Shown here piece after piece: positions 13,154 through 59,964 of a stretch of 64,000 bases of DNA. The notes under the pieces were generated by a model. The model had not been told where the DNA came from. It did no database searches and worked only from the letters and a program-made list of their open reading frames with translations. Position 1 is the first letter of the stretch. Each line of letters starts with the position of its first letter. The position numbers and the translations under genes are program-made. Origin of the DNA: Bacteroidales bacterium (GTDB taxonomy: Bacteria > Bacteroidota > Bacteroidia > Bacteroidales > UBA932); contig JAFZRX010000009.1 in NCBI GenBank assembly GCA_017619675.1, forward strand, positions 248,001-312,000, in the 5' to 3' direction.

Positions 13154-13161
13154 TATATTTG
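13154..13161 (+). promoter_or_regulatory. Promoter (-7 element) of the SRP RNA gene
   Basis: TATATTTG fits TAnnTTTG and lies directly before the predicted 5' end of the RNA at about 13165. A T-run at 13131-13135 sits at the -33 position. Confidence 0.7.
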
Positions 13162-13164
13162 CAC

Positions 13165-13262
13165 GGGGAAAGTCTTACACGACCAGCTCCCTCCCAACTC
13201 CCCCAGGGTAGGAATACAGCAAGGGTAAGAGGTTGTAGCGGTGCGATGTATCCAGCTTTCCC
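13165..13262 (+). ncRNA. ffs: Signal recognition particle RNA (small bacterial 4.5S type)
   Basis: The 98-nt transcript folds end to end: GGGGAAAG at the 5' end pairs with CTTTCCC at the 3' end. The apical region contains the conserved Ffh-binding internal loops, recognisable as CAGGGTAGGAATACAGCAAGG, which resembles the bacterial pattern of a GGAA tetraloop flanked by AGCA and CAGG. A run of T at 13263-13269 follows immediately and would end transcription with the closing stem as terminator hairpin. With the Ffh protein the RNA targets inner-membrane and secreted proteins during translation. Its short length, without an Alu domain, is normal for Gram-negative bacteria. Confidence 0.9.
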
Positions 13263-13300
13263 TTTTTTTATTGCCACACCGTTAATTCACTAGATATTGT

Positions 13301-28500: not shown

Positions 28501-30316
28501 GGTGGTGACCCTGCCGGTGAAGGTGGCTATCGTAGAGCCTCTGTACCTATACCACGGAGACCAATACACTCCTGCGATAACCCTTTCCAACAACAAGAAC
28601 CAGGACATTTCCGGAGTTGTGGAAATCAGTTTCTACGGAGGCGCGGATTACAAGAAGGCGCCGCTCCTGTCAACGCACAGCGAGAGGATAATAGTCCCGG
28701 CATCATCGGCTGCAAAGTTCAGTTACGATGCCACCGTGCCTGCTGCTGACAGCCTTGGAATAATGGTCAAGTTCACTCCTGACCAGGCTGAGGCGGGCGC
28801 TGACGCCCTGTTCACCGCATTGCCGGTTTACGAGCCGTTCCAGACCCTGACCGAGGCGCATTCATCCCTGCTGTTCACTACAGATGACAGGGACGCCGTG
28901 ATCGCCCGCCTGCGCGGCATGTTCGTGAACGTTCCGGGCTCCCAGGCAACCGTAAGGGAGATTTCCATATTCCAGATGCTGGGCGAGGCTATACCTGATA
29001 AGATAGACATCACGTCAAACAACCTGATCTGCCTGCTGGATTCATATTACGCCAACTACCTCCTGGAGAGGATGGGCCAGGGACGCCTGAGCGCGGAACA
29101 GAAGGAAGACGTGATGAAACGGATTATGGCCTGCAAGAAGGCCGACGGAGGATTCTCCTGGTTCCCCGAGATGGATTCTTCACCAATCCTTACCGCGGTG
29201 CTGCTCGAGAAGTTCGCCCTGATGGGCATAGATGTAGACCCTGCAACTGTCCAATACCTTGATTCCCAGTACTTCCACAAGGACAAGAGGCCATACTGGT
29301 ACGGCGGAATAAGCATGGCTCAGTACGCATATATACGCGCTATGTACGCATCCGTTCCTTTCAGCCGCAAGGGCATTGACAGCAAGGAATGGAAGGACTT
29401 CAAGAAGGCCTTCAAGCAGTATCTGGTGCCTAAGAAGGTACGTGGCCTGAACGGCCAGATCCTGGCCAAGACCTTCAGGATCAAGACCTTGCAACTGCTT
29501 TATGAATCCCAGGACGGCCTCCGCCTTGCGAGCGACTGGGGCATAAAGCTGTTCAGCGCTTCCCGCATGAAGAAGTCCCTGGAAAAGGACCTGGAGTCCC
29601 TGGTACAGTACGCCCAGCCGCACGTTTCCGGCGGCCAGTACTTCCCCAACGCCGTTATGCCTTGGCGCGGCCAGATGGAGAGCGAACTCTACGCCCACTC
29701 CCTGCTCTGCGACCTGCTTGACAAGTACGGCTACGACGACATAGCCAACGGCATAAGGCTGTGGATAATGGTGCAGAAGGAGACCCAGCAGTGGGCTTCA
29801 GACCCTGCATACATCCAGGCGCTTGGCTCAGTTCTGAACGCACCCCAGGAGATCCTGGACACCAAGGTTGTGGCGCTGAGCGCGACATTCAACAAGCCGT
29901 TCGAGCAGATCAAGGCCGCGGGCAACGGCTTCACCATTGAGCGCAGGTACTTCCTTGGCGACAAGGAACTCAAGGATGGCGATATGGTGAACGTGGGTGA
30001 CCGCGTCCGCGCCGAATACCGCGTGTGGAGCGAAGAGAACCGCAGTTTCGTGGTGCTGAGGGCACCACGCCCGGCGGGTCTCCGCCCTGTGCAGCAGCTG
30101 TCGTCCTACAGCTGGAGGTGCTATCGCAGCGTGAAGGCTGAAACCACTGAGTTCTGGTACGAAACCTTCGCGGAGGAGAAGCAGACCATCACCGAGGACT
30201 TCTATGTAACGCAGAAAGGCTCCTTTCGGAGCCCTGTAGCTGACATAGAATGTCTGTATGCGCCGCACTACCGCGCCAACGACGCGGGCAGCGGCTATAC
30301 CTTGCTGTCGCAGTAG
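25550..30316 (+). CDS. Large secreted alpha-2-macroglobulin-like protein without thioester
   Basis: The 1588-residue protein has a signal peptide (MKRILRMMASAILSIICMSAF). After about 370 residues of unassigned helical sequence, macroglobulin MG domains follow: the MG2-like stretch AYLITDRTAFTPDETVHFKAM near residue 480, and later the alpha-2-macroglobulin core around NTIAWEPFLVADENGEVSLKF. The C-terminal helical domain is present (KKADGGFSWFPE), but the thioester motif CxEQ is absent; the matching stretch reads SNNLICLLDSYY. Thioester-less bacterial forms such as YfaS are thought to trap or sense attacking proteases in the periplasm or at the surface. No PBP1C gene is adjacent. The 3' end overlaps the convergent pyrB gene by 22 bp. 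Confidence 0.88.
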   Translation: MKRILRMMASAILSIICMSAFAKDDQGHTLTSLWKSYYTAVNQDKPQDQQKILENIKKEALSKKLAWDYYDACQEYVQVRARSNWKYYEEAQENFHREIEAFPVPVAAFYMKMGDNPKDLLEFVRKNKAKLEAARNDEFYERDYRINSQLYSELLPQYLHNDYEYALWSIFFQREESPEFSELIKGKYPEEPFAEYTRITWEERDKQKDQLNAYAGKYTGKAVALMARQNLLEMYFDDLRGKGTSKEYSSLRDACEGFIKERDAFTGSEKAIAKLCDDPDRLLENLNSKAVGYRINDGAVEIYFRNLPSVTMQFLQNKKVTWQSEIKNPTGSYYVVDTVKFNLPAMDDGRYDVHCFNGKTQRDDIYERYSVSFAIRKDAKGTQLFAADYKTGRPLGKVEFVVSDNEDKETGRTSADTSGGFALLDKEIADQLEIRSRSRKAYVTYKDAQGFTRRSRDNYIYISEQGRYNPDESEMVAYLITDRTAFTPDETVHFKAMLYSGVYTLKNCPAGQKVTARLLDVQGKEIDTKELTTNAYGSVAGDFVLKRGERNGMYRIEIRLGNRVLDSRSLRVDDFVLPTYELIWTHERTYYRPVEKVELKGTLLSYSGHGLGAANITYTLRKNWQEIKSGVLPVDGQGNFCIEVIPDDEEYLNYSMEVKVVDATGETKTFEGSCTVRKKPEDPKEYFFKTLDKQDTLSVRTVAGNQRTWMIASLYGPDNKLLDTRLVEFAPQDGSPAETVTTYDYKDSYPDAITLELLYFQNGNCHTYSEVARRPDTRYELPLKVTRFSDETLPGGTYTFTFSGVPWMEVAASVFDKSTENISSNVWRTLRAGQKPSAYILSRVFTGTDYCDAGLYTPVFYTGGGRPMMKSASRNGAVLMAESAVAYSTADAGAVMDDAMVMDYVEEVEEEAIPFALAAPEAGPESGYIRENFANTIAWEPFLVADENGEVSLKFTNADKLSTYFVQLFAIDRQMRNTWMRREMVVTLPVKVAIVEPLYLYHGDQYTPAITLSNNKNQDISGVVEISFYGGADYKKAPLLSTHSERIIVPASSAAKFSYDATVPAADSLGIMVKFTPDQAEAGADALFTALPVYEPFQTLTEAHSSLLFTTDDRDAVIARLRGMFVNVPGSQATVREISIFQMLGEAIPDKIDITSNNLICLLDSYYANYLLERMGQGRLSAEQKEDVMKRIMACKKADGGFSWFPEMDSSPILTAVLLEKFALMGIDVDPATVQYLDSQYFHKDKRPYWYGGISMAQYAYIRAMYASVPFSRKGIDSKEWKDFKKAFKQYLVPKKVRGLNGQILAKTFRIKTLQLLYESQDGLRLASDWGIKLFSASRMKKSLEKDLESLVQYAQPHVSGGQYFPNAVMPWRGQMESELYAHSLLCDLLDKYGYDDIANGIRLWIMVQKETQQWASDPAYIQALGSVLNAPQEILDTKVVALSATFNKPFEQIKAAGNGFTIERRYFLGDKELKDGDMVNVGDRVRAEYRVWSEENRSFVVLRAPRPAGLRPVQQLSSYSWRCYRSVKAETTEFWYETFAEEKQTITEDFYVTQKGSFRSPVADIECLYAPHYRANDAGSGYTLLSQ

Positions 30317-31371
30317 ACGCAGCGGACTATGCCGCCTTCCGTCTTGTGGAAGAGCGGGGTCACGTTCTCGTGATTGCAGATACACTTGGAGTTACGGCAA
30401 TGCCTGCCCGGATCCTGGAAATACTCGGGATGGGCGGGCATTGTGTGTGAAGGGTCATCCTTCCACTCCAGGAGCTTGCAGATCAGGGACATACGCACGA
30501 ACTTTCCGTTCTCCACCTGCCTGAAATAGGCTGCGCGTGGGTCTGAGTCCACTTCCTGGCGGATCTCGTTCACCCTTGGAAGCGGGTGCAGGATGGCCAT
30601 GTTGGGCTTTGCCCCTTTCAGTTTCTCGCAGTCCAGCACAAAGCTGTCCTTGACGCGCTCGAACTCCTCTTCGTCCAGGAAACGCTCTTTTTGCACGCGG
30701 GTCATGTAAAGCACATCCAGTTCGCCTATCACTTCCTCAATGCTGCGGACTTCCTTGTACTTGAGGCCAAGTTTGTCGCAGACGTCGCTCTTGATGTAGT
30801 CCGGAAGACGCATCTCGTCAGGGGAGATGAGGACTATGTCTATTCCCTTGTAGCGGGAGAGGGCCTTGATCAGGGAGTGTACGGTGCGTCCGAAGCGCAG
30901 GTCTCCGCAGAATCCTATGGTGATGTTGTCTATGTGACCCAGTTCACGCTTGATGGTGATGAGATCGGTGAGAGTCTGTGTGGGGTGGGCGTGGGAGCCG
31001 TCCCCGGCGTTGATGATGGGCACTTTGGATACCTTGGATGCTACGTAAGGTGCTCCTTCAAGGGGATGGCGCATCGCTATGACGTCAACGAAGTTGCCCA
31101 CGGTGAGGGCGGTGTCGCCTACGGTCTCGCCTTTGGCTACGGAAGAACTGCGGGCGTCAGAGAATCCCAGGACGTTGCCGCCAAGTTCCATCATCGCAGC
31201 GGTGAAACTCAGCCTTGTACGGGTACTTGGCTCGTAGAAGAGGGTGGCCAGTTTATGGTAGCGGAGTTTCTCGCGGAAAAGGTCGCGGTTGGCTATGATG
31301 TATTCGCCGTATTCGATTATCTCGTCAATCTCCTCCTTGGTGAAGTCGGTAGGGTCTATAAGGTGCTTCAT
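30295..31371 (-). CDS. pyrB: Aspartate carbamoyltransferase with a C-terminal PyrI-like zinc domain
   Basis: The enzyme condenses carbamoyl phosphate and aspartate, the second pyrimidine step. Catalytic motifs are complete: FYEPSTRTRLSF for carbamoyl phosphate, SSVAKGETVGDT, HPTQTLTDL and HPLPRVNEI. A usual PyrB ends near residue 302 (VRMSLICKLL here), but this protein continues to 358. The extension holds four cysteines, C325, C330, C351 and C354, in the spacing C-x4-C-x20-C-x2-C, with CRNSKCICNHENVTPLF closely resembling the zinc domain of the regulatory chain PyrI. PyrI's nucleotide-binding domain is missing, and no pyrI gene is seen in the window. It is the last gene of the pyr operon and overlaps the convergent macroglobulin gene. 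Confidence 0.95.
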   Translation of the reverse strand: MKHLIDPTDFTKEEIDEIIEYGEYIIANRDLFREKLRYHKLATLFYEPSTRTRLSFTAAMMELGGNVLGFSDARSSSVAKGETVGDTALTVGNFVDVIAMRHPLEGAPYVASKVSKVPIINAGDGSHAHPTQTLTDLITIKRELGHIDNITIGFCGDLRFGRTVHSLIKALSRYKGIDIVLISPDEMRLPDYIKSDVCDKLGLKYKEVRSIEEVIGELDVLYMTRVQKERFLDEEEFERVKDSFVLDCEKLKGAKPNMAILHPLPRVNEIRQEVDSDPRAAYFRQVENGKFVRMSLICKLLEWKDDPSHTMPAHPEYFQDPGRHCRNSKCICNHENVTPLFHKTEGGIVRCVYCDSKV

Positions 31372-31378
31372 ATCTCTT

Positions 31379-32008
31379 TTATTTGATCCAGCTTTCGTCC
31401 GAAGGGTTGTCCCTGAATCTGAGGATGCGCTCTTTCCAGGCGGCGTCGATGTATCCTTCCTGGGCGGCCACCTCTACAAGGGCGTCCAGGTTGGAGAGGG
31501 AGTAGTTGACCACGTTTGCGGCGGCCAGCCTGTCAAGGCCTTTCTTCATCCCGTAGGTGAAGATGCTTACGATTCCCAGCACCTCGGCTCCGGCCTCGCG
31601 CAGGGCCTCCACAACCTCAATGGCGCTGCCTCCGGTGGAGATCAGGTCCTCTATGACTACAACCTTGCATCCGGGCTCCATGCGGCCCTCGATGCGGTTG
31701 TTGCGGCCGTGGCTCTTGGCCTCGCCGCGGACATATCCCATGGGCATGTCCAGTATTGACGCTGCAATGGCGGCGTGGGCTATTCCGGCGGTGCTCGTTC
31801 CCATAAGCATCTGTGCCTCAGGGAATTTAGCCTTTACCGTATCGGCTATTGCCTGCTCCACCACCTTGCGGGCTTCCGGGGCGGAGAGCACCAGGCGGTT
31901 GTCACAGTAAATGGGGCTCTTTATTCCGCTGGCCCAGGTGAACGGGTTCTCAGGGCGCAGGAACACGGCCTTGATGTTCAGCAACTCTTTGGCTATTCTT
32001 TTTTCCAT
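31379..32008 (-). CDS. pyrE: Orotate phosphoribosyltransferase
   Basis: The 209-residue cytoplasmic enzyme joins orotate to PRPP, giving OMP. The PRPP-binding loop is VVVIEDLISTGGSAIE, and the flexible catalytic loop carries the needed basic residues in YVRGEAKSHGRNNRIEG. FTWASGIKSPIYCDNR is the orotate-binding N-terminal motif. Length is normal for the bacterial homodimer. The gene is 3 bp downstream of pyrF and 7 bp upstream of pyrB, so it is part of the single pyr transcript beginning near 39864. Confidence 0.96.
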   Translation of the reverse strand: MEKRIAKELLNIKAVFLRPENPFTWASGIKSPIYCDNRLVLSAPEARKVVEQAIADTVKAKFPEAQMLMGTSTAGIAHAAIAASILDMPMGYVRGEAKSHGRNNRIEGRMEPGCKVVVIEDLISTGGSAIEVVEALREAGAEVLGIVSIFTYGMKKGLDRLAAANVVNYSLSNLDALVEVAAQEGYIDAAWKERILRFRDNPSDESWIK

Positions 32009-32011
32009 ATC

Positions 32012-32713
32012 CTAGTAAACGAATTCTTCAAGACATTTCTGATAGGCTGCCACGGGGTCTTCAGCGGCGGTGATGGGGCGTCCCACCACTATGAAGTCCG
32101 AGCCTATTTCCCTGGCGCGGGCGGGGGTGGTGATGCGGACCTGGTCGTCAGCCGCGGCTCCGGCGAAGCGGATGCCCGGCGTCACGGTCAGGAAGTCCGC
32201 TCCGCAGCGGCGCTTTATGGCCGCCGCCTCAAGCGGAGAGCAGACCACGCCGTCCAGCCCTGCTTCGCGGGCGTTGGCGGCATAATGGGCCGTGGTTTCC
32301 TCCATCGAGGCGTTGATCAGCAGGTCTTTCTGCATCCTCTCCTCGCTGGTTGAGGTGAGCTGCGTCACCGCGATGAGCAGCGGGCGGGTGCCGTCAGGCC
32401 TGGTAAGGCCCTCCAGCGCCGCGCGCATCATCTCAATGGTGCCCGCAGCGTGCACGTTGGTCATATCCACCTCAAGGTTAGAAAGCACCCTGGCGGTCTT
32501 CTTTACGGTATTGGGGATGTCGTGCATCTTGAGGTCCAGGAAGATCTTGTGGCCCCTGGCCTTGATGTCACGTACTATCTGCGGGCCCGCAGCGTAGTAC
32601 AGTTCCATACCAATCTTCACGAAGGGCTTCTGGGGGCAGTCCTTGAACTTGTCCAGGAACTCCAGCGCCTGCTCCGCGCCTGCGAAGTCGCAGGCTATGA
32701 TAACGTCTCTCAT
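32012..32713 (-). CDS. pyrF: Orotidine-5'-phosphate decarboxylase
   Basis: This 233-residue enzyme removes CO2 from OMP, making UMP. The catalytic Lys-Asp pair lies in [13 protein letters not shown], near residue 60, and the phosphate is held by VTPGIRF and VVGRPIT. It belongs to the short group common in Firmicutes and Proteobacteria. Many Bacteroides species instead have the longer group of about 270 residues, so the gene may have been replaced by transfer in this lineage, which is only a suggestion. The start overlaps the end of pyrD by 4 bp. Confidence 0.95.
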
Positions 32714-33615
32714 GCCACTCCTATAATCTCGTTAATATTCTCTATTCCAAGCTTTTGCATAAGTACCGGCAGTTCTTCCACTATCTCCTTGCTGGCGTAG
32801 GGATTGCGGAGATTCTCCGCTCCCACCTGCACTGCCGTGGCTCCCGCCATCATCATTTCAATCACGTCCGATGCGCTTGCCACGCCGCCGCATCCCATAA
32901 TTGGAATCTTGCAGGCGCGCTTCACCTGGTTCACCATCCTGAGCGCGATAGGGAAGATTGCCCTGCCGCTGAACCCGCCGTAGCGGTTGGCCAGGATTGG
33001 CACCCTGCGGTTTATGTCGATGCGCATTCCAAGGAGGGTGTTGACCAGCGTCAGTCCGTCCGCCCCGGCTTCCTCGCAGGCCTTTGCTATGGCCACGATG
33101 TCCGTGACGTTGGGGCTCAGTTTTATGAACACGGGCTTATGGCACAGGGCCTTGACCGCCGCGGTAACTTCCGCGGCCGCACAGGCCGAAGTGCCGAACG
33201 CCATCCCGCCGCCGTGTACGTTGGGGCAGGAGACGTTGACTTCCAGTATGTCAACCCCTTCGCATTTGTCCGCTATGGAGCAACTCTTCACGTATTCTTC
33301 CAGGGAGAATCCGCTTATGTTGGCTATCACCGCTCCTCCGAATATCTTGCGCAACTGGGGAATCTTCTCTTCCACCAGGGCGTAAACACCCGGGTTCTGG
33401 AGGCCCACAGAATTGAGCATCCCGTCCGGGGTCTCCGCTATGCGGGGGCACTCGTTACCGAAGCGCGGTTCCAGGGTGGAACCCTTCAGCGATATGCCTC
33501 CCAGCACGTTCAGGTCGTATTCCCCGGCCATCTCTAAGCCGAAGCCGAAGGTGCCGCTGGCCGGAATCACCGGATTCTTGAGCGTTACTCCGCAAAGGTT
33601 TACTTCAGTTACCAT
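32710..33615 (-). CDS. pyrD: Dihydroorotate dehydrogenase, class 1B catalytic subunit
   Basis: The ATG at 33615 gives 301 residues; an in-frame start 39 bp upstream would extend further into pyrK. This FMN enzyme oxidises dihydroorotate to orotate. The class 1 catalytic cysteine is in [13 protein letters not shown]; class 2 enzymes have serine there. [19 protein letters not shown] and [16 protein letters not shown] are FMN-binding. Class 1B enzymes work as a heterotetramer with PyrK and pass electrons to NAD, and pyrK lies directly upstream with a 7-bp overlap. This is consistent with an anaerobe that need not use quinones for this step. Confidence 0.96.
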
Positions 33616-34346
33616 ATTATGTCCTCCTTCTTGAAAACGGGGCCGTCGGCGCATACTCGCCTGGGCCCGGATGCGGTATGGCAGGTGCAGCCGTAGCAGA
33701 TGCCGCAGCCGCAGCCCATGCGCTCCTCAAGGCTGGCCTCGCCAGGGCCTTCCAGGCTGGCGCAGACAGCCTTCATCATCGGCGCGGGGCCGCAGGTGTA
33801 GAAGTAGTCGAACTCCGGCTGAACGGCCTTTATGGCATCGGTCACAAAGCCCTTTATTCCCAGCGAGCCGTCCAGCGTGGCCAGGTGGACATCGGCGCCC
33901 ATGGCCTTGAAATCGTCCACCAGGACGGCGTCGGCGTCGGTGTTGAACCCCATCACCACGCAGACCTTCTTTCCTTGTGCGATGAGTTCCTTTGCCAGGC
34001 TGAAGACGGGGGAGGCGCCAAGGCCTCCGCAGGCTATGAGCGCGCTCTGGCGGCAGGCACCGGCGTCAAAGCCGTTGCCCAGCCCGCAGAGCAGCTCCAG
34101 GACCTGCCCCGGCTGCATGGCGCTCATCACTTCCGTGCCCTGTCCCACCACCTTGTAGATGACGGCCAGGCTTTCCGGGTCCCATTCCTGCGCGGCCAGA
34201 GGCCTCCGCAGGAAGAACCCGTCAATTGCCACGTCCACGAACTGCCCGGCGCGCTTGAGCGCACCCGTAGGCCCCTGCAGGCGCATCCTGTAGGTCTTGT
34301 CCGCGATCAGTTCGTTGGACAGTATTGTATAGAGGGCTTTTTCCAT
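33609..34346 (-). CDS. pyrK: Dihydroorotate dehydrogenase electron-transfer subunit
   Basis: PyrK links the FMN of PyrD to NAD through FAD and a [2Fe-2S] cluster. The ATG at 34346 overlaps the carB stop codon by one base (TGATG) and gives 245 residues. FAD binding is shown by FFLRRPLAAQEW and the NAD-binding fold by LIACGGLGASPVFSLA. The cluster cysteines lie at the C terminus in MGCGCGICYGCTC and RRVCADGPVF. Length and motif order are normal. It is in the middle of the pyr operon, directly before its partner pyrD. Confidence 0.95.
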   Translation of the reverse strand: MEKALYTILSNELIADKTYRMRLQGPTGALKRAGQFVDVAIDGFFLRRPLAAQEWDPESLAVIYKVVGQGTEVMSAMQPGQVLELLCGLGNGFDAGACRQSALIACGGLGASPVFSLAKELIAQGKKVCVVMGFNTDADAVLVDDFKAMGADVHLATLDGSLGIKGFVTDAIKAVQPEFDYFYTCGPAPMMKAVCASLEGPGEASLEERMGCGCGICYGCTCHTASGPRRVCADGPVFKKEDIIW

Positions 34347-37300
34347 CAATGGTTGTATTCTTCGTCAATCGTAGATATACCGAGCGTGATCTCTTCCAGG
34401 ACGTCAAGCAGCACGCGGACAGTCTCCAGCGAAGTGAATATTGTAACGTTGTTCTCAACCGCGGCACGGCGGATATCGTATCCGTCAAGCCTTGAACTGT
34501 GCTGGTTGATGTCTATGGTGTTGATCACATAGCTTACGTGGCCCTGGCGGAGGCTGCTTATGATGTCCTTGCTGCCCTCGCTCAGCTTATCGAGGCTGCG
34601 GGTCTTTATGCCGTTCTTCTTGAGGAACTCGGCGGTTCCCTTTGTAGCCTCGATATTGAATCCCAGGTTGTAGAAGCGGCGGATGAGCGGCAGCGCCTCC
34701 TCCTTGTCCTGGTCCGCTATGGTGGCGAATATGGTTCCGTAGTTCACTACGCTCACGCCGGATGCCTGCAAGGACTTGTAAAGCGCGCGGTTCAGCGAAT
34801 CGTCATATCCGATGGCCTCACCGGTGGACTTCATCTCAGGGGAGAGGTAGGTGTCTATTCCCTTTATCTTTCCGAAGGAGAACGCCGGGCTCTTCACGTA
34901 GTGCCTGTGGCGCTCGGGATAGTAAACCTGGCTTATGCCCTGCTCCTTGAGGGAGTGTCCCAGCATGATCAGGGTGGCTATCTTGGCCATCGGTACACCT
35001 GTTGACTTGGACAGGAACGGTACTGTACGGGATGAACGGGGGTTGACCTCGATCACGTATACGTCGTTCTTTGAATCCACTATGAACTGGATGTTGAACA
35101 GTCCCACGATGCCAATTTCCAGGCCCAGTTTCACGGTGTAGTCCACTATCTTGTCCTTCACGTCCTGGCTCAGGGAGAAGGAAGGATATACGCTTATGGA
35201 ATCTCCGGAATGGATACCCGTGCGCTCCACATGCTCCATGATTCCGGGGATGAACACGTCCTTGCCGTCGCAGATAGCGTCAACTTCGCACTCCTTGCCC
35301 TGGATGTACTTGTCCACCAGGACAGGGGAGTTCTCGTTGATCTCCACCGCGTTGTGCAGGTAGTGGCGGAGGGCTTCCTCGTTGCCCACTATCATCATGG
35401 CGCGGCCTCCGAGCACGAAGGACGGGCGCACCAGCACCGGATAGCCTATCTCGGCCGCGGCCTTGACGCCTTCCTCCACGTCAGTCACGGCCTTGGCCTT
35501 GGGCTGAGGAATTCCGGTCTTGCGCATGATGGCCTCGAACAGCTTGCGGTCCTCAGCGTTGTCAATGGCCTCGATCTGGGTGCCGATGATCGGTACGTCG
35601 AACTCGGCCAGCGGGCCGGCCAGGTTGATGGCGGTCTGTCCTCCAAGGGTCACTATGATGCCCTGAGGATTCTCCATCTTTATGACGTTCATGACGTCCT
35701 CTACGGTAAGCGGCTCAAAGTAAAGCTTGTCTGAGATGGAGTAGTCCGTAGAAACAGTTTCGGGGTTGTTGTTTATGATAATTGCCTCATATCCGGCCTC
35801 CCGGATGGCCCAGATGGCGTGTACGGTGGAGTAGTCGAATTCTACTCCCTGACCGATCCTGATAGGACCTGCGCCCAGCACCAGGATCTTCTTGCGGTCG
35901 CTGACCACGGTCTCGTTCTCCTGCTCGTAGGTGGAGTAGAAGTAAGGTACGTCAGCGTCGTGCTCCGCGGCGCAGCTGTCGATGAACTTGTATACGGGGT
36001 TGATGCCCAGGGACCACCTGTACTCGATGGCTTCCTTTTCCGTCATTCCCCACAGCTGGCCAATGAACTTGTCGCTGAATCCCAGCCTCTTGGCCTGTAA
36101 CAGCGTCTCCTTGTCCTTGGGATTTGCCTTGAGGGCTTCCTCCATGCGCACAATGTTGCATATCTTCTCAAGGAAGAGCATGTCAATCTTGGTGCGGTCA
36201 TATATGTGCCTGATATCCACGCCGTTGCGTATCAGCTGGGCTATTGCCAGGTAATGGTCGTCCGGGAACTTTGTGATGTACTGGAGCATGTCCGCGTCGC
36301 TCATTGACTCGAACTTGCGCTTCCACAGGTGGCAACAGCCGATCTCCAGCGAGCGGATGGCCTTGAGGAAGCTCTCCTCGAAGGTACGGCCTATGCTCAT
36401 GACCTCTCCGGTGGCCTTCATCTGGGTCCCCAGTTCATTGGAAGCCTCGCTGAATTTGTCGAACGGGAAGCGGGCCACCTTGCTCACTATGTAGTCGATG
36501 GAAGGCTCGCAGCAGGCGGGGGCGCCGGCCACGGTGATTTCGTCCAGGGTAAGTCCCACCGCTATCTTCGCGGTTACGCGGGCGATGGGGAAGCCGCTGG
36601 CCTTGGAAGCCAGGGCGGATGAGCGGGAAACGCGAGGGTTAACCTCGATTATGTAGTAGTTGAAGGACAGCGGGTCCAGTGCGAACTGGATGTTGCATCC
36701 GCCTTCGATCTTCAGGGCGCGGATGAGTTTCAGGGCGCTGGCGCGGAGGATTTCGTATTCCTTGTCGGCCAGGGTCTGCACGGGGGCAACGACCACGGAA
36801 TCTCCGGTGTGGATGCCTACGGGGTCAACGTTCTCCATTGAGCAGATGGTGATGGCGGTGTCGTTCTTGTCGCGCATCACCTCGAACTCGATCTCCTTGT
36901 AGCCCTTCACGCTCTTCTCGATGAGCACCTGATGGACAGGGGAGAGGGCCAGGGCGTTGCGCATCATGTCGGTCAGTTCAGCGGCGTTGTTGGCGAATCC
37001 GCCGCCCGTTCCTCCAAGGGTGAAGGCGGGGCGCAGCACCACGGGGTAGCCTATCTTGTCGGCGGTAGCCAGGGCCTCTTCTATGCTGTAGCATATCTGG
37101 GAGGGGATCACGGGCTCGCCGAGGCTGATGCACAGTTCCTTGAACAGTTCGCGGTCCTCCGCCTGCTCGATGCTGTGGAAGGAGGTTCCAAGGATTTCTA
37201 CGTGGCACTCGTCAAGGACGCCCTTGCGCGCCAGTTTCACGGCCAGGTTGAGGCCTGTCTGGCCTCCCAGGCCGGGAACTATGGCGTCCGGCCTCTCATA

Positions 37301-37537
37301 TCGGATTATCTTGGCAACATATTCCAGGTCCAGGGGCTCCATGTAAACCTTGTCCGCCATCTGGGTGTCCGTCATGATGGTGGCTGGGTTGGAGTTCACC
37401 AGCACCACCTCATAGCCTTCTTCCTTGAGGGCGAGGCAGGCCTGGGTGCCTGCATAGTCGAATTCGGCGGCCTGGCCTATCACGATAGGGCCGGAGCCGA
37501 TAACCATTATCTTGTTTATGTCAGTTCTCTTGGGCAT
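34346..37537 (-). CDS. carB: Carbamoyl-phosphate synthase large subunit
   Basis: The 1063-residue subunit makes carbamoyl phosphate from bicarbonate, ATP and ammonia. Two ATP-grasp halves are recognisable: IMVIGSGPIVIGQAAEFDY at the start, and ILVLGAGPIRIGQGVEFDY near residue 555. The C-terminal allosteric domain of about 130 residues is present; it normally binds UMP (inhibitor) or ornithine (activator). The ammonia channel normally receives ammonia from CarA, whose gene precedes carB by 3 bp; see the CarA entry for a likely defect in ammonia delivery. Carbamoyl phosphate serves both the pyrimidine and the arginine pathways of this window. Confidence 0.97.
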   Translation of the reverse strand: MPKRTDINKIMVIGSGPIVIGQAAEFDYAGTQACLALKEEGYEVVLVNSNPATIMTDTQMADKVYMEPLDLEYVAKIIRYERPDAIVPGLGGQTGLNLAVKLARKGVLDECHVEILGTSFHSIEQAEDRELFKELCISLGEPVIPSQICYSIEEALATADKIGYPVVLRPAFTLGGTGGGFANNAAELTDMMRNALALSPVHQVLIEKSVKGYKEIEFEVMRDKNDTAITICSMENVDPVGIHTGDSVVVAPVQTLADKEYEILRASALKLIRALKIEGGCNIQFALDPLSFNYYIIEVNPRVSRSSALASKASGFPIARVTAKIAVGLTLDEITVAGAPACCEPSIDYIVSKVARFPFDKFSEASNELGTQMKATGEVMSIGRTFEESFLKAIRSLEIGCCHLWKRKFESMSDADMLQYITKFPDDHYLAIAQLIRNGVDIRHIYDRTKIDMLFLEKICNIVRMEEALKANPKDKETLLQAKRLGFSDKFIGQLWGMTEKEAIEYRWSLGINPVYKFIDSCAAEHDADVPYFYSTYEQENETVVSDRKKILVLGAGPIRIGQGVEFDYSTVHAIWAIREAGYEAIIINNNPETVSTDYSISDKLYFEPLTVEDVMNVIKMENPQGIIVTLGGQTAINLAGPLAEFDVPIIGTQIEAIDNAEDRKLFEAIMRKTGIPQPKAKAVTDVEEGVKAAAEIGYPVLVRPSFVLGGRAMMIVGNEEALRHYLHNAVEINENSPVLVDKYIQGKECEVDAICDGKDVFIPGIMEHVERTGIHSGDSISVYPSFSLSQDVKDKIVDYTVKLGLEIGIVGLFNIQFIVDSKNDVYVIEVNPRSSRTVPFLSKSTGVPMAKIATLIMLGHSLKEQGISQVYYPERHRHYVKSPAFSFGKIKGIDTYLSPEMKSTGEAIGYDDSLNRALYKSLQASGVSVVNYGTIFATIADQDKEEALPLIRRFYNLGFNIEATKGTAEFLKKNGIKTRSLDKLSEGSKDIISSLRQGHVSYVINTIDINQHSSRLDGYDIRRAAVENNVTIFTSLETVRVLLDVLEEITLGISTIDEEYNH

Positions 37538-37540
37538 GTC

Positions 37541-38608
37541 CTATTCCTCCATCATTGCTATGAATTTGTCAAAAAAGTCGCTCTCCTGCGGGCCCGGGGC
37601 TCCTTCAGGATAGAACTGTACGCTGTATACCTTGTCGGCGGGGCACTGGAGGCCCTCTATGGTGCCGTCGGAGGCGTCCTTGTAGACAACCTCAAGCGGG
37701 GTGCCGGCCAGGGAGGCCTCGTCAACCGCGTAGTTGTGGTTGTGCTCGGTTGTGATGATGCGTCCGGTCTCCATGTTGCGGACAGGATGGCCGCCGTGGT
37801 GTCCGCAGAGCATCTTGAATGTCTTGGCTCCGTATGAACGGGCTATGATGAGGTGTCCCAGGCAGATTCCAAAGAGGGGGAGCCTTCCCTTCAGGTCCTT
37901 GACAAGCTTGTCAAGGGAAGGGAGGTTGTCAGGGCTGCCGGGGCCGTTGGATATGATCACTCCGTCAGGGTCGAAGGCCAGGATGTCCTCCACCGTGGAG
38001 TTGTAGGGAACCACGGTGACGTTGCATCCGCGCTGGTTCAGGGCGGACACTATGCTGTGCTTGAGGCCGCAGTCCACTATCACCACGTCATATTTGTGCT
38101 GGGGGGTGCGGGAGAACCAGCGCTTGGTGCAGCTGACCCTGGCCACCTGGTCCGTCTGGACCGGGGCCTGGGCTATGAGCACCAGCGCGTTGCCGGTGGA
38201 CATGCCTTCGTCCACTATGGCCGCCTTCATGCTGCCCTCCGTACGTATGATGCGGGTGAGCATGCGGGTGTCGGGGCCGCTCAGGATTGGAATCCCGTGT
38301 TCGTCCATCTCCTCAGACAAGGTCTTTGTGTAGCGGAAGTTGGACGGGGTGTCGCAGTACTCGCGGACTATGAGGCCGCCAAGTGAGAAGATGCGGGACT
38401 CAAAGTCGTCGTCGGTGATACCATACTGGCCTATCAGGGGATAGGTCATCACTACTAACTGTCCGGCGTATGCCGGGTCGGAAGCTATTTCCTGATACCC
38501 CACCATTGAGGTATTGAAAACTATTTCCCCCACGACAGGGCTCTGTGACCCGTATCCCAGGCCGTGGAACTCCTGTCCGTTTTCGAGAACAAGCTTCATT
38601 TTCTTCAT
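37541..38608 (-). CDS. carA: Carbamoyl-phosphate synthase small subunit with altered glutaminase site
   Basis: CarA hydrolyses glutamine to give ammonia to CarB. The 355-residue protein has the N-terminal CarA domain (GYQEIASDPAYAGQLVVMTYP) and a class I amidotransferase domain. The nucleophile C249 is present in FGICLGHL. The catalytic histidine, expected in a motif like QFHPEASPGP, is replaced: this protein reads QFYPEGAPGP, placing Tyr at residue 333, with Glu335 kept. The usual QNHGF loop reads HNHNY, and GHQ after the nucleophile reads GHL. A codon TAT instead of CAT would explain the change by one base. Loss of glutaminase, or a divergent subfamily, is likely. A second in-frame ATG at 38599 is possible as start. 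Confidence 0.9.
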   Translation of the reverse strand: MKKMKLVLENGQEFHGLGYGSQSPVVGEIVFNTSMVGYQEIASDPAYAGQLVVMTYPLIGQYGITDDDFESRIFSLGGLIVREYCDTPSNFRYTKTLSEEMDEHGIPILSGPDTRMLTRIIRTEGSMKAAIVDEGMSTGNALVLIAQAPVQTDQVARVSCTKRWFSRTPQHKYDVVIVDCGLKHSIVSALNQRGCNVTVVPYNSTVEDILAFDPDGVIISNGPGSPDNLPSLDKLVKDLKGRLPLFGICLGHLIIARSYGAKTFKMLCGHHGGHPVRNMETGRIITTEHNHNYAVDEASLAGTPLEVVYKDASDGTIEGLQCPADKVYSVQFYPEGAPGPQESDFFDKFIAMMEE

Positions 38609-38612
38609 TTTC

Positions 38613-39731
38613 CTATATCTTAAATATTGTCTTTCCTTTGTAAACGGTCTTCACGCACTTTCCGTAGACTTCCCAGCCGTCGAAGGGGGTGCTGTGCCCC
38701 TTGGACTGGAACTTTGAGGAATCTATGACGAAAGGCTCTCCAACTTCGAAGAAGGCCCTGTCGCGCCCCGCTTCCGGAAGGCGGAAGCGCCTGCGCGGGG
38801 CCGTGCTCATCAGGTCCACCAGTTTCTCAAGCGTGATGACGCCTTTCAGGACCAGATGCGTGTACAGGACTGGGAATGCTGTCTCCAGTCCCGTGATGCC
38901 CATTGCGCTGTCCTTAAGGCCCTTGGACTTTTCCTCCGCGCTGTGCGGGGCGTGGTCCGTGGCAATCATGTCTATGGTTCCGTCCTGGATGCCTTCCAGC
39001 AGGGCGTCCCTGTCCGCCGCGCTGCGGAGGGGAGGGTTCATCTTGAAACGGCCGTCTTCCTGGAGGTTGTCGTCGCACAGGACAAGGTAGTGGGGCGCCG
39101 TCTCGCAGGAGACGTTCACGCCGCGGGCCTTGGCCTGGCGTATCAATTGGACGCTTTCCTTTGTGGAGATGTGGCAGACGTGGTATGCGCAGCCGCATTC
39201 CTCCGCCAGCGCCAGGTCCCTTTCTATCTGCGCCCACTCGCTGGCGGCGCAGATGCCCTTGTGACCATGGGTGTGGGCGTACTCGCCGTCGTTTATGTAG
39301 CCGCCGCGAAGCAGGGAGTTGTCCTCGCAGTGGGCGGCCAGGATGCAGTCCTGCGCGGCAATGAGTTTCATCGCCCTGCGCATGACGGCGTCATCCTGCA
39401 CGCCGCTGCCATCGTCGGAGAACGCCACGCAGCCGCCCTTGAGGGCCGCCACGTCCACTACCTCCAGGCCCTTGCGGCCCAGGGTGATGGTGGCGTACGG
39501 CCTCACGTCAATGAAGGCGTCCCTGCGGATTATGTCCAGTTCCTCCTGCAGGTGCTCCGGGGTGTCCGGAGCGGGGGAGAGGTTGGGCATGGGGCACACC
39601 GCGGTATAGCCGCCGGCCGCGGCTGCACGGCATCCCGTCAGGATGGTCTCCTTATATGGGGAACCCGGCTCGCGGAAGTGCACGTGCACGTCGGCAAGGG
39701 CGGGGATCTCTATTACATTCTTCAACGACAT
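38613..39731 (-). CDS. pyrC: Dihydroorotase (amidohydrolase type I)
   Basis: The 372-residue enzyme closes carbamoyl aspartate to dihydroorotate. Metal ligands are visible as HxH in ALADVHVHFREPG, histidines in AAHCEDNS and YHVCHIST, and the catalytic aspartate in ATDHAPH. PMPNLSPAPDTPEHL contacts substrate. It is the first gene of the pyr operon, an unusual place, and its start codon lies 3 bp after the T-run of an intrinsic terminator, so its expression must depend on read-through. The 4-bp gap to carA and the unbroken order pyrC-carA-carB-pyrK-pyrD-pyrF-pyrE-pyrB supply every step from bicarbonate to UMP. Confidence 0.95.
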   Translation of the reverse strand: MSLKNVIEIPALADVHVHFREPGSPYKETILTGCRAAAAGGYTAVCPMPNLSPAPDTPEHLQEELDIIRRDAFIDVRPYATITLGRKGLEVVDVAALKGGCVAFSDDGSGVQDDAVMRRAMKLIAAQDCILAAHCEDNSLLRGGYINDGEYAHTHGHKGICAASEWAQIERDLALAEECGCAYHVCHISTKESVQLIRQAKARGVNVSCETAPHYLVLCDDNLQEDGRFKMNPPLRSAADRDALLEGIQDGTIDMIATDHAPHSAEEKSKGLKDSAMGITGLETAFPVLYTHLVLKGVITLEKLVDLMSTAPRRRFRLPEAGRDRAFFEVGEPFVIDSSKFQSKGHSTPFDGWEVYGKCVKTVYKGKTIFKI

Positions 39732-39734
39732 GGC

Positions 39735-39764
39735 AAAAAAAATGACGACTTATAAAAGCCGTCA
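39735..39764 (-). terminator. Attenuator of the pyrimidine operon
   Basis: On the minus strand a 9-bp stem (one G-U pair) with a 4-nt loop, built from TGACGGCTT and AAGTCGTCA, is followed directly by eight U at 39742-39735. The U-run ends 3 bp before the pyrC start codon. Because it lies between the promoter and all eight pyr genes, it must be conditional. The stop codon of the upstream leader peptide forms the first three bases of the stem. Confidence 0.85.
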
Positions 39765-39851
39765 ACCAATTAAAAAATAAAAATGGAACAGTTTGTCTGA
39801 CACATTGCCGGAAGCCGGAGAATACTGTATGCAGCTGTAAATCTGATCCAT
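39762..39851 (-). CDS. Pyrimidine-operon leader peptide
   Basis: A 29-codon frame starts at the ATG at 39851, about 13 nt after the predicted transcription start and behind an A-rich stretch typical of Bacteroidetes translation starts. It begins MDQIYSCIQYSPASG and ends with KLFHFYFLIG. Its stop codon (39764-39762) overlaps the 5' base of the terminator stem. The last nine sense codons, roughly 39765-39791, are U-rich, and a small CCGG/CCGG hairpin lies upstream at 39808-39819. By analogy with E. coli pyrBI, low UTP would make RNA polymerase pause in the U-rich stretch. The ribosome could then catch up, cover the stem and allow read-through. The peptide itself probably has no function. Confidence 0.75.
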   Translation of the reverse strand: MDQIYSCIQYSPASGNVSDKLFHFYFLIG

Positions 39852-39867
39852 TGTTTTTTTGTTTGTG

Positions 39868-39897
39868 CAAAGTTAGATATTTTCCAAAATACCGCAA
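39868..39897 (-). promoter_or_regulatory. Promoter of the pyrimidine operon
   Basis: TAACTTTG at 39875-39868 fits the -7 element TAnnTTTG, and TTG at 39897-39895 lies exactly 19 bp upstream, the usual -33 spacing. The predicted start near 39864 gives a leader of about 130 nt holding the leader peptide and attenuator. Confidence 0.8.
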
Positions 39898-39927
39898 GTT
39901 TTTTTTCGTTTTTTGCTTTATGGATTG

Positions 39928-39935
39928 TAACTTTG
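39928..39935 (+). promoter_or_regulatory. Promoter (-7 element) of the purine operon
   Basis: TAACTTTG on the plus strand is identical to the -7 element of the divergent pyr promoter 52 bp away. The -33 position (TCG at 39906-39908) is weak. The leader to purE would be about 164 nt. Confidence 0.6.
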
Positions 39936-39952
39936 TCACTCGCAAAGGATCA

Positions 39953-40075
39953 ATGTTGATGGAACTCTTTTACATACGTAAAATAAAGAATTCCCCTTCT
40001 TCCGGAAGCTCTCCGGAGACGTATCCCAGCCTACCCTTATCGTCAAAGCCCGGCCGGCAGAAACCGACCAGGTGA
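39953..40075 (+). other. Possible leader open reading frame of the purine operon
   Basis: A 40-codon frame starts shortly after the predicted purine-operon transcription start (MLMELFYIRKIKNSP) and ends 27 bp before purE. It contains several short palindromes around CCGG but no T-run after a hairpin. Evidence for translation is weak, and no purine riboswitch pattern is seen. It may be chance. Confidence 0.25.
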
Positions 40076-40102
40076 GTTATTGTATTATAGTAGTTTATAG
40101 TT

Positions 40103-40570
40103 ATGAAAGTTGGAGTTATAATGGGGTCGACAAGTGATCTGGAGGTCATGTCGGCTGCCTTCGACGTGCTTGACCGCTTCAGGGTCCCGTACGAGAAGAA
40201 AGTGATCAGCGCCCACCGCGCACCCGCCCTTCTGGCGGAGTACGCCACCACCGCCCGCGACCGCGGCCTTGACATTATAATTGCCGGAGCCGGCGGAGCC
40301 GCGCATCTTCCGGGAGTCACCGCCTCTATGACCACCATCCCCGTGATAGGCGTACCTATCAGCGGAAAGGCCTTCGGCGGAATGGACGCGCTCCTCTCAA
40401 TGGTCCAGATGCCTTCCGGAATCCCGGTAGCAACGGTTTCCGTGAACGGGGCTAAGAACGCCGCCCTCCTGGCCATATCAATACTCTCACTTTCCAATCC
40501 GGGCCTTGCCGCGTCGCTTAAATCCTTCCGCGACCAGCAGGCGGAGATTATCAAGCGCACAGAAATCTAA
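40103..40570 (+). CDS. purE: N5-carboxyaminoimidazole ribonucleotide mutase, class I PurE
   Basis: This 155-residue enzyme moves the carboxyl group of N5-CAIR to give CAIR. Class I features are visible: GSTSDLEVM for the phosphate, the catalytic histidine in ISAHRAP, and IIAGAGGAAHLPGV. Class I PurE needs PurK to make N5-CAIR, yet no purK lies in the operon or window; purB is also absent, so both must be elsewhere. It is the first gene of the purine operon, 9 bp before purL. Confidence 0.95.
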   Translation: MKVGVIMGSTSDLEVMSAAFDVLDRFRVPYEKKVISAHRAPALLAEYATTARDRGLDIIIAGAGGAAHLPGVTASMTTIPVIGVPISGKAFGGMDALLSMVQMPSGIPVATVSVNGAKNAALLAISILSLSNPGLAASLKSFRDQQAEIIKRTEI

Positions 40571-59832: not shown

Positions 59833-59860
59833 AAAAAAAACTTGCCAACCCGGGGCAAGT
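59833..59860 (-). terminator. Attenuator of the histidine operon
   Basis: On the minus strand ACTTGCC and GGCAAGT make a perfect 7-bp stem with a 7-nt loop, followed by seven more U. It lies 54 nt after the leader-peptide stop and 11 bp before hisG, so it must be conditional on leader translation. I could not assign a convincing antiterminator pairing by eye. Confidence 0.85.
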
Positions 59861-59913
59861 CCATACTACATAACTAAAATATATTAATTACAACAGCCTG
59901 AACCGCCTTATCT

Positions 59914-59964
59914 TCAGATACGGTGGTGATGGTGATGAAGGGTTATGATACTGTTGTTTGTCAT
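59914..59964 (-). CDS. hisL: Histidine-operon leader peptide with five His codons
   Basis: The 16-codon frame reads MTNNSIITLHHHHHRI and ends at 59914. Five consecutive histidine codons (CAT, CAC, CAT, CAC, CAC) in so short a peptide are the hallmark of his attenuation: scarce charged tRNA-His stalls the ribosome there and changes RNA folding before the downstream terminator. The start codon lies only about 6 nt after the predicted transcription start. A hairpin just after the run (ACCG-TATC with GATA-CGGT, bulged) spans the stop codon and could be the protector stem. Confidence 0.88.
   Translation of the reverse strand: MTNNSIITLHHHHHRI

Follow-up and report, generated by a model that had tools for sequence, protein, structure and literature searches.

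The DNA directly upstream of pyrC in this Bacteroidales bacterium is probably a translation-coupled transcription attenuator that senses UTP and works like the pyrBI leader of enterobacteria. It lies in a stretch of 64,000 nucleotides (here called the window), and its interpretation as a pyrBI-like device, put forward in the original prediction, is supported by a conserved leader frame, the position of the leader stop codon at the hairpin, U enrichment and an intrinsic terminator. From these features we infer the start of transcription, the pausing of the polymerase, its coupling to a ribosome, UTP as the signal and operon-wide control. The role of UTP is suggested by the U bias of the leader and by the function of the operon.

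Organization of the leader and of the pyrimidine operon

All elements of the leader were found on the minus strand. The promoter read from the sequence (39868..39898) consists of a Bacteroidetes-type -7 box, TAACTTTG, at 39875-39868 and a partial -33 element, CTTG, at 39898-39895, with 19 nt between them. The consensus of such boxes, TAnnTTTG, is reported to be placed at -12 to -5 (PMC9723704). The region had been described as a consensus promoter, which is right for the -7 box and slightly overstated for the -33 element; the transcription start is predicted from the box. UTP-driven slippage at the start site was considered as well and rejected, as the window has no run of U downstream of the -7 box.

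The leader frame, also read from the sequence (39762..39851), comprises 29 codons, MDQIYSCIQYSPASGNVSDKLFHFYFLIG, and a TGA; its ATG is located at 39851 and its stop codon at 39764-39762. Across the last nine sense codons (39765..39791), the proposed UTP-dependent slow zone, T accounts for 17 of the 27 nucleotides (0.63). The terminator hairpin recovered by the terminator scan and by folding (39743..39764) has a 9-bp stem, whose first three bases are the leader stop codon, and a 4-nt loop. It is followed by the U8 tract of the intrinsic terminator (39735..39742), and three nucleotides, GCC, separate the T8 from the pyrC ATG at 39731. The predicted leader frame, U-rich in its last nine sense codons, was in this way borne out base for base, as were the overlap of TGA and stem, the eight U and the 3-bp distance to pyrC. 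The next frame upstream (40103-40570), purE-like by eye, is oriented opposite to pyrC, and therefore the terminator most simply acts on transcripts from the leader's own promoter.

The genes downstream, likewise on the minus strand, were identified with NCBIfam models. The first is pyrC (dihydroorotase, 38613..39731), which scored above the cut-off of the subfamily model TIGR00857 and below those of the equivalog models. It is followed by carA and carB (carbamoyl-phosphate synthase small and large subunits, 37541..38608 and 34346..37537; TIGR01368 and TIGR01369 above cut-off) and by pyrK (dihydroorotate dehydrogenase electron transfer subunit, 33609..34349), named after its best hits, which reached E 2e-61 and were below their cut-offs. 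The remaining genes, all with matches above cut-off, are pyrD (dihydroorotate dehydrogenase, 32710..33654; NF005574 and TIGR01037), pyrF (orotidine-5'-phosphate decarboxylase, 32012..32713; TIGR01740), pyrE (orotate phosphoribosyltransferase, 31379..32008; TIGR00336) and pyrB (aspartate carbamoyltransferase catalytic subunit with a C-terminal extension, 30295..31371; TIGR00670 over residues 2-301 of 358). The eight-gene pyrimidine operon that had been predicted was thus confirmed in the order pyrC-carA-carB-pyrK-pyrD-pyrF-pyrE-pyrB, with pyrK below its cut-off, and the terminator would control all eight genes. In the operons of family f113 and genus g16, pyrK, D, F, E and B follow pyrC in this order; of the two f113 loci read, one has carA and carB between pyrC and pyrK, and the g16 locus read does not have them there.

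Two further elements were noted in the window. A leader precedes hisG (59838-59964, minus strand), with the sequence MTNNSIITLHHHHHRI, an ATG at 59964 and five His codons in a row; its terminator hairpin begins at 59862 and ends 16 nt before hisG. Judged by its anatomy, it is a textbook histidine attenuator. A Bacteroidales small SRP RNA (RF04183, 98.9 bits) is located at 13159-13266.

Comparison with other terminators of the genome

The terminator alone is not significant, since a scan of positions 39300-40200 found one, against a mean of 0.9 in shuffled sequences. The combination of terminator, -7 box and leader frame before pyrC is more than chance. A scan of 773,790 bases (38% of the 2.04-Mb genome) revealed 35 terminators, six of them at most 40 nt from an ATG opening at least 120 codons, and within this part of the genome a -7 box and a leader frame were present upstream of only two of the six, those of pyrC and hisG. 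The U-rich tract is similarly unusual. Among 15 terminators in 385 kb, the T content of the preceding 27 nt was 0.07-0.33 in 13, against 0.63 at pyrC and 0.52 at hisG. In the wider scan, T reached at least 0.48 before the hairpin in three of the 35 terminators: the pyrC and hisG terminators and a third one, on contig C5, that is not at a gene start.

Conservation of the leader in Bacteroidales

Homologues of pyrC were searched in the genus, family and order of the bacterium, in family f113 and in genus g16, and the DNA upstream of them was examined. The resulting 226 loci comprised 121 of 130 hits in the own genus, 72 of 80 in f113, all 17 in g16, one from another genome of the family, 14 loci assigned to Bacteroidales by title, and L240, which repeats L006; L108 was left out as a copy of L010. 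In 137 of the 226 loci, an ATG and a TAnnTTTG box were found together with a strict terminator, defined as one with at least four GC pairs and 7 T among 8 nucleotides. The others lacked a strict terminator (82 loci), the box (five) or the ATG (one), or were too short (one). Of these 82, about 14 carry a hairpin within pyrC and 11-12 show a weaker terminator upstream; none was seen in the others.

The frame was studied in 102 non-redundant leaders, taking the first ATG after the box, the presence of which was the condition of entry; one artefact, L188, with its ATG at the hairpin, was kept in the counts. The distance from the start of the box to this ATG is 9-42 nt in 100 of the 102 loci. The frame is open up to the hairpin in 93 leaders, against 41.0 expected from dinucleotide shuffles, and its stop codon lies between -12 and the hairpin end in 82 (26.3 expected from the same type of shuffle) and earlier than -12 in nine. 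The frame reaches the hairpin in each group taken apart, i.e. in 45 of 47 leaders of f113 (15.8 expected) and in 48 of 55 others (25.2 expected). As the same species may occur in several loci, the set was dereplicated at a similarity ratio of 0.60, which left the frame in 34 of 37 leaders (12.6 expected), the stop in its window in 30 of 37 (7.7 expected) and T higher toward the hairpin in 33 of 33. The P values of these comparisons assume independence and are too small because the leaders share descent; the direction is clear.

The frame and hairpin had been expected to recur in relatives, and this expectation stood: frame, stop position, hairpin and U tract recur in two families despite differing sequences.

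Several individual loci deserve mention. In L173 the first ATG after the box opens a frame of only four codons, whose TGA overlaps a second ATG; this locus was counted as a failure, and the second ATG opens a 36-codon leader that ends in the hairpin loop. In L044, a close relative, a frame shift near the leader end moves the stop codon from the hairpin base to +11, in the loop, and both the U tract and the hairpin are kept, which suggests that the peptide itself does not matter. Fourteen loci, among which species may repeat (L003, L005, L047, L051, L179, L181, L182, L189, L193, L261, L291, L295, L300 and L309), have no separate leader and carry a 10-15-bp hairpin with a short U run inside the first pyrC codons. 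Where the ATG is clear, this hairpin lies about 35-55 nt after it, and its sequence differs between loci; it is possibly a self-leader attenuator or a translational device.

U enrichment and codon choice in the leaders

In all 88 leaders of at least 45 nt, the T content of the last 27 nt is higher than that of the leader remainder (0.50 against 0.23), and T rises over about the last 36 nt toward the hairpin. The bias extends to positions at which the encoded residue is indifferent. Among the two-fold codons of 74 leaders, the share with T in the final position is 81% within the last nine codons and 48% within the rest of the leader, compared with 32% in the first 600 nt of pyrC, and the respective values for four-fold and Ile codons are 51%, 26% and 14%. 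Leader peptides share no common sequence across groups, by eye. A U bias at synonymous positions in leaders with differing peptides suggests that selection acts on the RNA and not on an amino acid, and this pattern of codon choice argues for the sensing of UTP rather than of an amino acid.

T is at most 0.34 in the last 27 nt of 19 of the 102 leaders. These comprise 8 of the 14 leaders of g16, eight from the own genus and other loci, including one artefact, and three from f113; 14 of the 102 leaders, with many of these U-poor ones among them, were too short for the T comparison. Most of the U-poor leaders keep the frame and the hairpin, therefore coupling may operate without a strong U tract.

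Proposed mechanism of attenuation

According to the proposed mechanism, RNA polymerase would start about 12 nt upstream of the leader ATG, as predicted from the -7 box, and would soon reach the U tract. When UTP is plentiful, the tract would be crossed quickly with no ribosome close behind, the hairpin would fold, U8 would follow and transcription would stop before pyrC. When UTP is scarce, the polymerase would linger in the U tract while a ribosome starts on the leader. At the stop codon on the hairpin base, this ribosome would occupy the newly made 5' arm of the stem, so that the hairpin would be blocked and transcription would run on through the eight pyr genes. Afterwards the ribosome may reinitiate 30 nt further on, at pyrC.

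Reports on other bacteria bear on this scheme. The pyrBI leader is described as operating via ribosome-polymerase coupling (PMC5021804). In E. coli, termination is reported to fall from about 90% to less than 10% when the distance between a stop codon and the terminator downstream of it is shortened from 28 to 5 bp, and a minimum of 10-15 nt of free RNA is considered necessary (PMC4824070). In B. subtilis, terminators are reported to follow stop codons closely, since the polymerase there moves ahead of the ribosome (PMC7858274). By analogy, in a host where the polymerase outruns the ribosome, as in B. subtilis, the pyrC leader would not respond.

Predicted pairing of the leader start codon

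The centroid fold of the window leader predicts a long-range stem (39783..39852), in which the start-codon segment, 39852-39843, pairs with the segment before the U tract, 39791-39783, and the bases of the AUG are paired with p 0.97-1.00. Similar pairing is predicted in the relatives. In 77 leaders of at least 70 nt, the start region paired with the stretch upstream of the hairpin with a mean z of -1.35 against local shuffles, the G of the AUG was paired with a mean p of 0.85, and in 61 of the 68 leaders with a partner above p 0.3 that partner lay 7-39 nt before the hairpin. The pairing appears specific to the own leader, as in 71 leaders the mean z, again against local shuffles, was -1.49 for the own -45..-12 region and -0.66 for the last 27 nt, compared with controls of +0.24 (leader middle), -0.08 (codons 7-15), -0.19 (end of another leader) and +0.13 (hairpin). 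Such a stem might delay the polymerase in the U tract, might mask the start region once the polymerase has moved on, or might do both.

These predictions suggest a variant of the attenuator model, a kinetic gate at the start codon, which we regard as possible though on balance doubtful. The segment before the U tract would pair with the leader start region once the polymerase releases it. At low UTP, a delayed polymerase would keep this segment inside the enzyme and the start codon would be free for a ribosome; at high UTP, a fast polymerase would let the stem close, the leader would stay untranslated and the terminator would fold. The specificity of the pairing and the predicted burial of the AUG speak for the gate, and so does E. 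coli pyrL (L359), a single sequence, whose U-rich tract is predicted to form base pairs with the ribosome-binding site and AUG (z -3.0, p 0.97-1.0). On the other side, all of this is structure prediction, with p of at most 0.05 reached individually in 35% of the 77 leaders; several short leaders have no stem (in L035 the AUG is paired with p 0.01), and the stem may be a common pause hairpin that leaves initiation unaffected.

Because E. coli pyrL folds alike, the gate is perhaps a general, separately evolved part of such sensors, and for the same reason the start-region stem was dropped as a mark distinguishing the Bacteroidales leaders from pyrBI. We might speculate, with still greater reserve, that Bacteroidales leaders read UTP as a race between stem closure and leader initiation, that the gate may be general and separately evolved, and that in one subgroup pyrC itself became the leader, with the hairpin in its first codons.

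Alternative explanations

It is unlikely that the leader frame merely boosts pyrC translation by reinitiation, with the terminator damping the operon constitutively. Leader genes near structural genes are reported to peak in Bacteroidetes among other groups and were proposed as an aid to reinitiation (PMC4833913). In agreement with such a role, an in-frame start codon is located at most 25 nt from the hairpin end in 92 of the 102 leaders, but reinitiation leaves unexplained both the U tract with its synonymous bias and the clustering of stop codons at the hairpin.

The pyr operons of many Firmicutes are under PyrR control, and terminators are found upstream of pyrC in related Clostridia, therefore a protein or small molecule (PyrR-like regulator or riboswitch) that binds the leader RNA and controls the terminator was also considered. 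This seems very improbable. As originally noted, no pyrR was seen: the own genome (94.5% complete) gave only a partial PyrR match of 21 bits, against a cut-off of 138. Rfam found nothing at gathering score in the leader region of the window or in 20 relatives, the sub-threshold matches at the leader being two to microRNAs (E 0.87 and 1.8). The wide sequence divergence among the leaders speaks against a binding site as well.

A classic amino-acid attenuator, in which ribosome stalling at Phe, Leu or other leader codons would decide termination, is scarcely credible: Phe is the commonest residue of the last nine codons (17%, present there in 65 of 74 leaders) and a His leader precedes hisG in the same genome, but at least three Phe occur in the last nine codons of only 8 of the 74 leaders, no other residue does better, repeated codons for a regulating amino acid were not found in these 74, TTT and TTC stand at 90:23 in the last nine codons against 28:59 in the rest, i.e. 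U is favoured and not Phe, and the stop codon lies 54 nt upstream of the hairpin in the hisG leader and at 0 nt in the pyr leader.

Distribution and origin of the operon

The UTP-sensing attenuator thus favoured belongs to an operon that is patchy in its own genus, as its type of pyrC is present in 130 of 400 genomes; in a smaller sample of 61, the others had a dihydroorotase about 30% identical or no match. No terminator was found in 15 upstream regions of 260 nt before the native pyrB of genus members without this operon (L138-L152), so the leader seems tied to the pyrC-headed operon.

Among the best 80 loci of the homologue search, the pyrC of the carriers closely resembles its clostridial counterparts. 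A tree of 52 proteins placed the Clostridia together (99/99) and f1 and f113 on the opposite side, at a great distance from the native dihydroorotase of other genus members, so the operon may have been transferred between phyla. In this tree f1 did not resolve into a single clade, f113 is weakly supported (45/37), and the direction of transfer is not settled. Terminators were also found in many of the 66 loci scanned for clostridial relatives, often 100-190 nt upstream of the match and arranged differently; one locus, L054, has a title that names Bacteroidales and was transferred to the main set. Rfam identified only three tRNAs in 20 clostridial loci.

A search of titles and the beginnings of abstracts, with most subscription journals outside its reach, returned no report of a pyrimidine attenuator in Bacteroidota. 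In Flavobacterium, there are reported to be signs of attenuation by leader peptides upstream of amino-acid operons (PMC9723704), and short frames reminiscent of attenuation are described in long 5' UTRs of B. thetaiotaomicron (PMC7366714). If our interpretation is true, UTP sensing through transcription-translation coupling works in Bacteroidota, a phylum with its own promoter type, and does so in many gut and rumen species, perhaps with a separate origin. The leaders also constitute a natural test of whether ribosomes closely follow RNA polymerase in this phylum.

Comparison with known attenuators

Like the trp/his-type attenuators, including the hisG leader in the window, the pyr leader combines a leader peptide and a terminator before the first gene. 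It differs in having no run of a single codon and in stopping at the hairpin, compared with 54 nt before it in hisG. Moreover, the pyr terminator stem has p 0.94-1.00 in the 26 leaders folded, which indicates that there is no strong competing antiterminator, unlike in the trp/his type. With the PyrR-dependent attenuation of Firmicutes it shares a terminator before pyr genes; the Bacteroidales genome has no PyrR above cut-off, and its leader frame is conserved. The E. coli rph-pyrE attenuator has a terminator near a stop codon and depends on UTP-dependent coupling. The pyrC leader resembles it in the former and probably in the latter, the difference being that the leader there is a full gene and here a frame of 29 codons.

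The closest known system is pyrBI of enterobacteria with its leader pyrL. Both have a short leader frame, a U-rich stretch, an intrinsic terminator and a pyr gene directly downstream, and in both (for E. coli K-12, one leader) pairing is predicted between the initiation region and the U-rich tract. In pyrBI the ribosome prevents the hairpin, as proposed for the Bacteroidales leader. Among the differences, the downstream gene is pyrC of an eight-gene operon here and pyrB in E. coli, the window leader has a T content of 0.63 over its last 27 nt, compared with 0.41 for pyrL, and the peptides show no resemblance by eye. Most Bacteroidales leaders stop at or in the hairpin, whereas pyrL crosses the terminator to end 3 nt before pyrB. 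A frame through the terminator with its stop just before pyrB, the mark of enterobacterial pyrL, was not found in the window, and a few relatives, e.g. L014, L049 and L054, have leaders that cross the terminator like pyrL. The original prediction allowed for an independently evolved or a shared logic; it is shared among these Bacteroidales, and with respect to E. coli, for which the anatomy of one leader was compared, it is perhaps of separate origin. The features of a pyrBI-type attenuator that can be recognized from sequence alone, i.e. a leader frame before the terminator and first pyr gene, a U-rich tract and a geometry in which the ribosome would cover the hairpin, are all present before pyrC.
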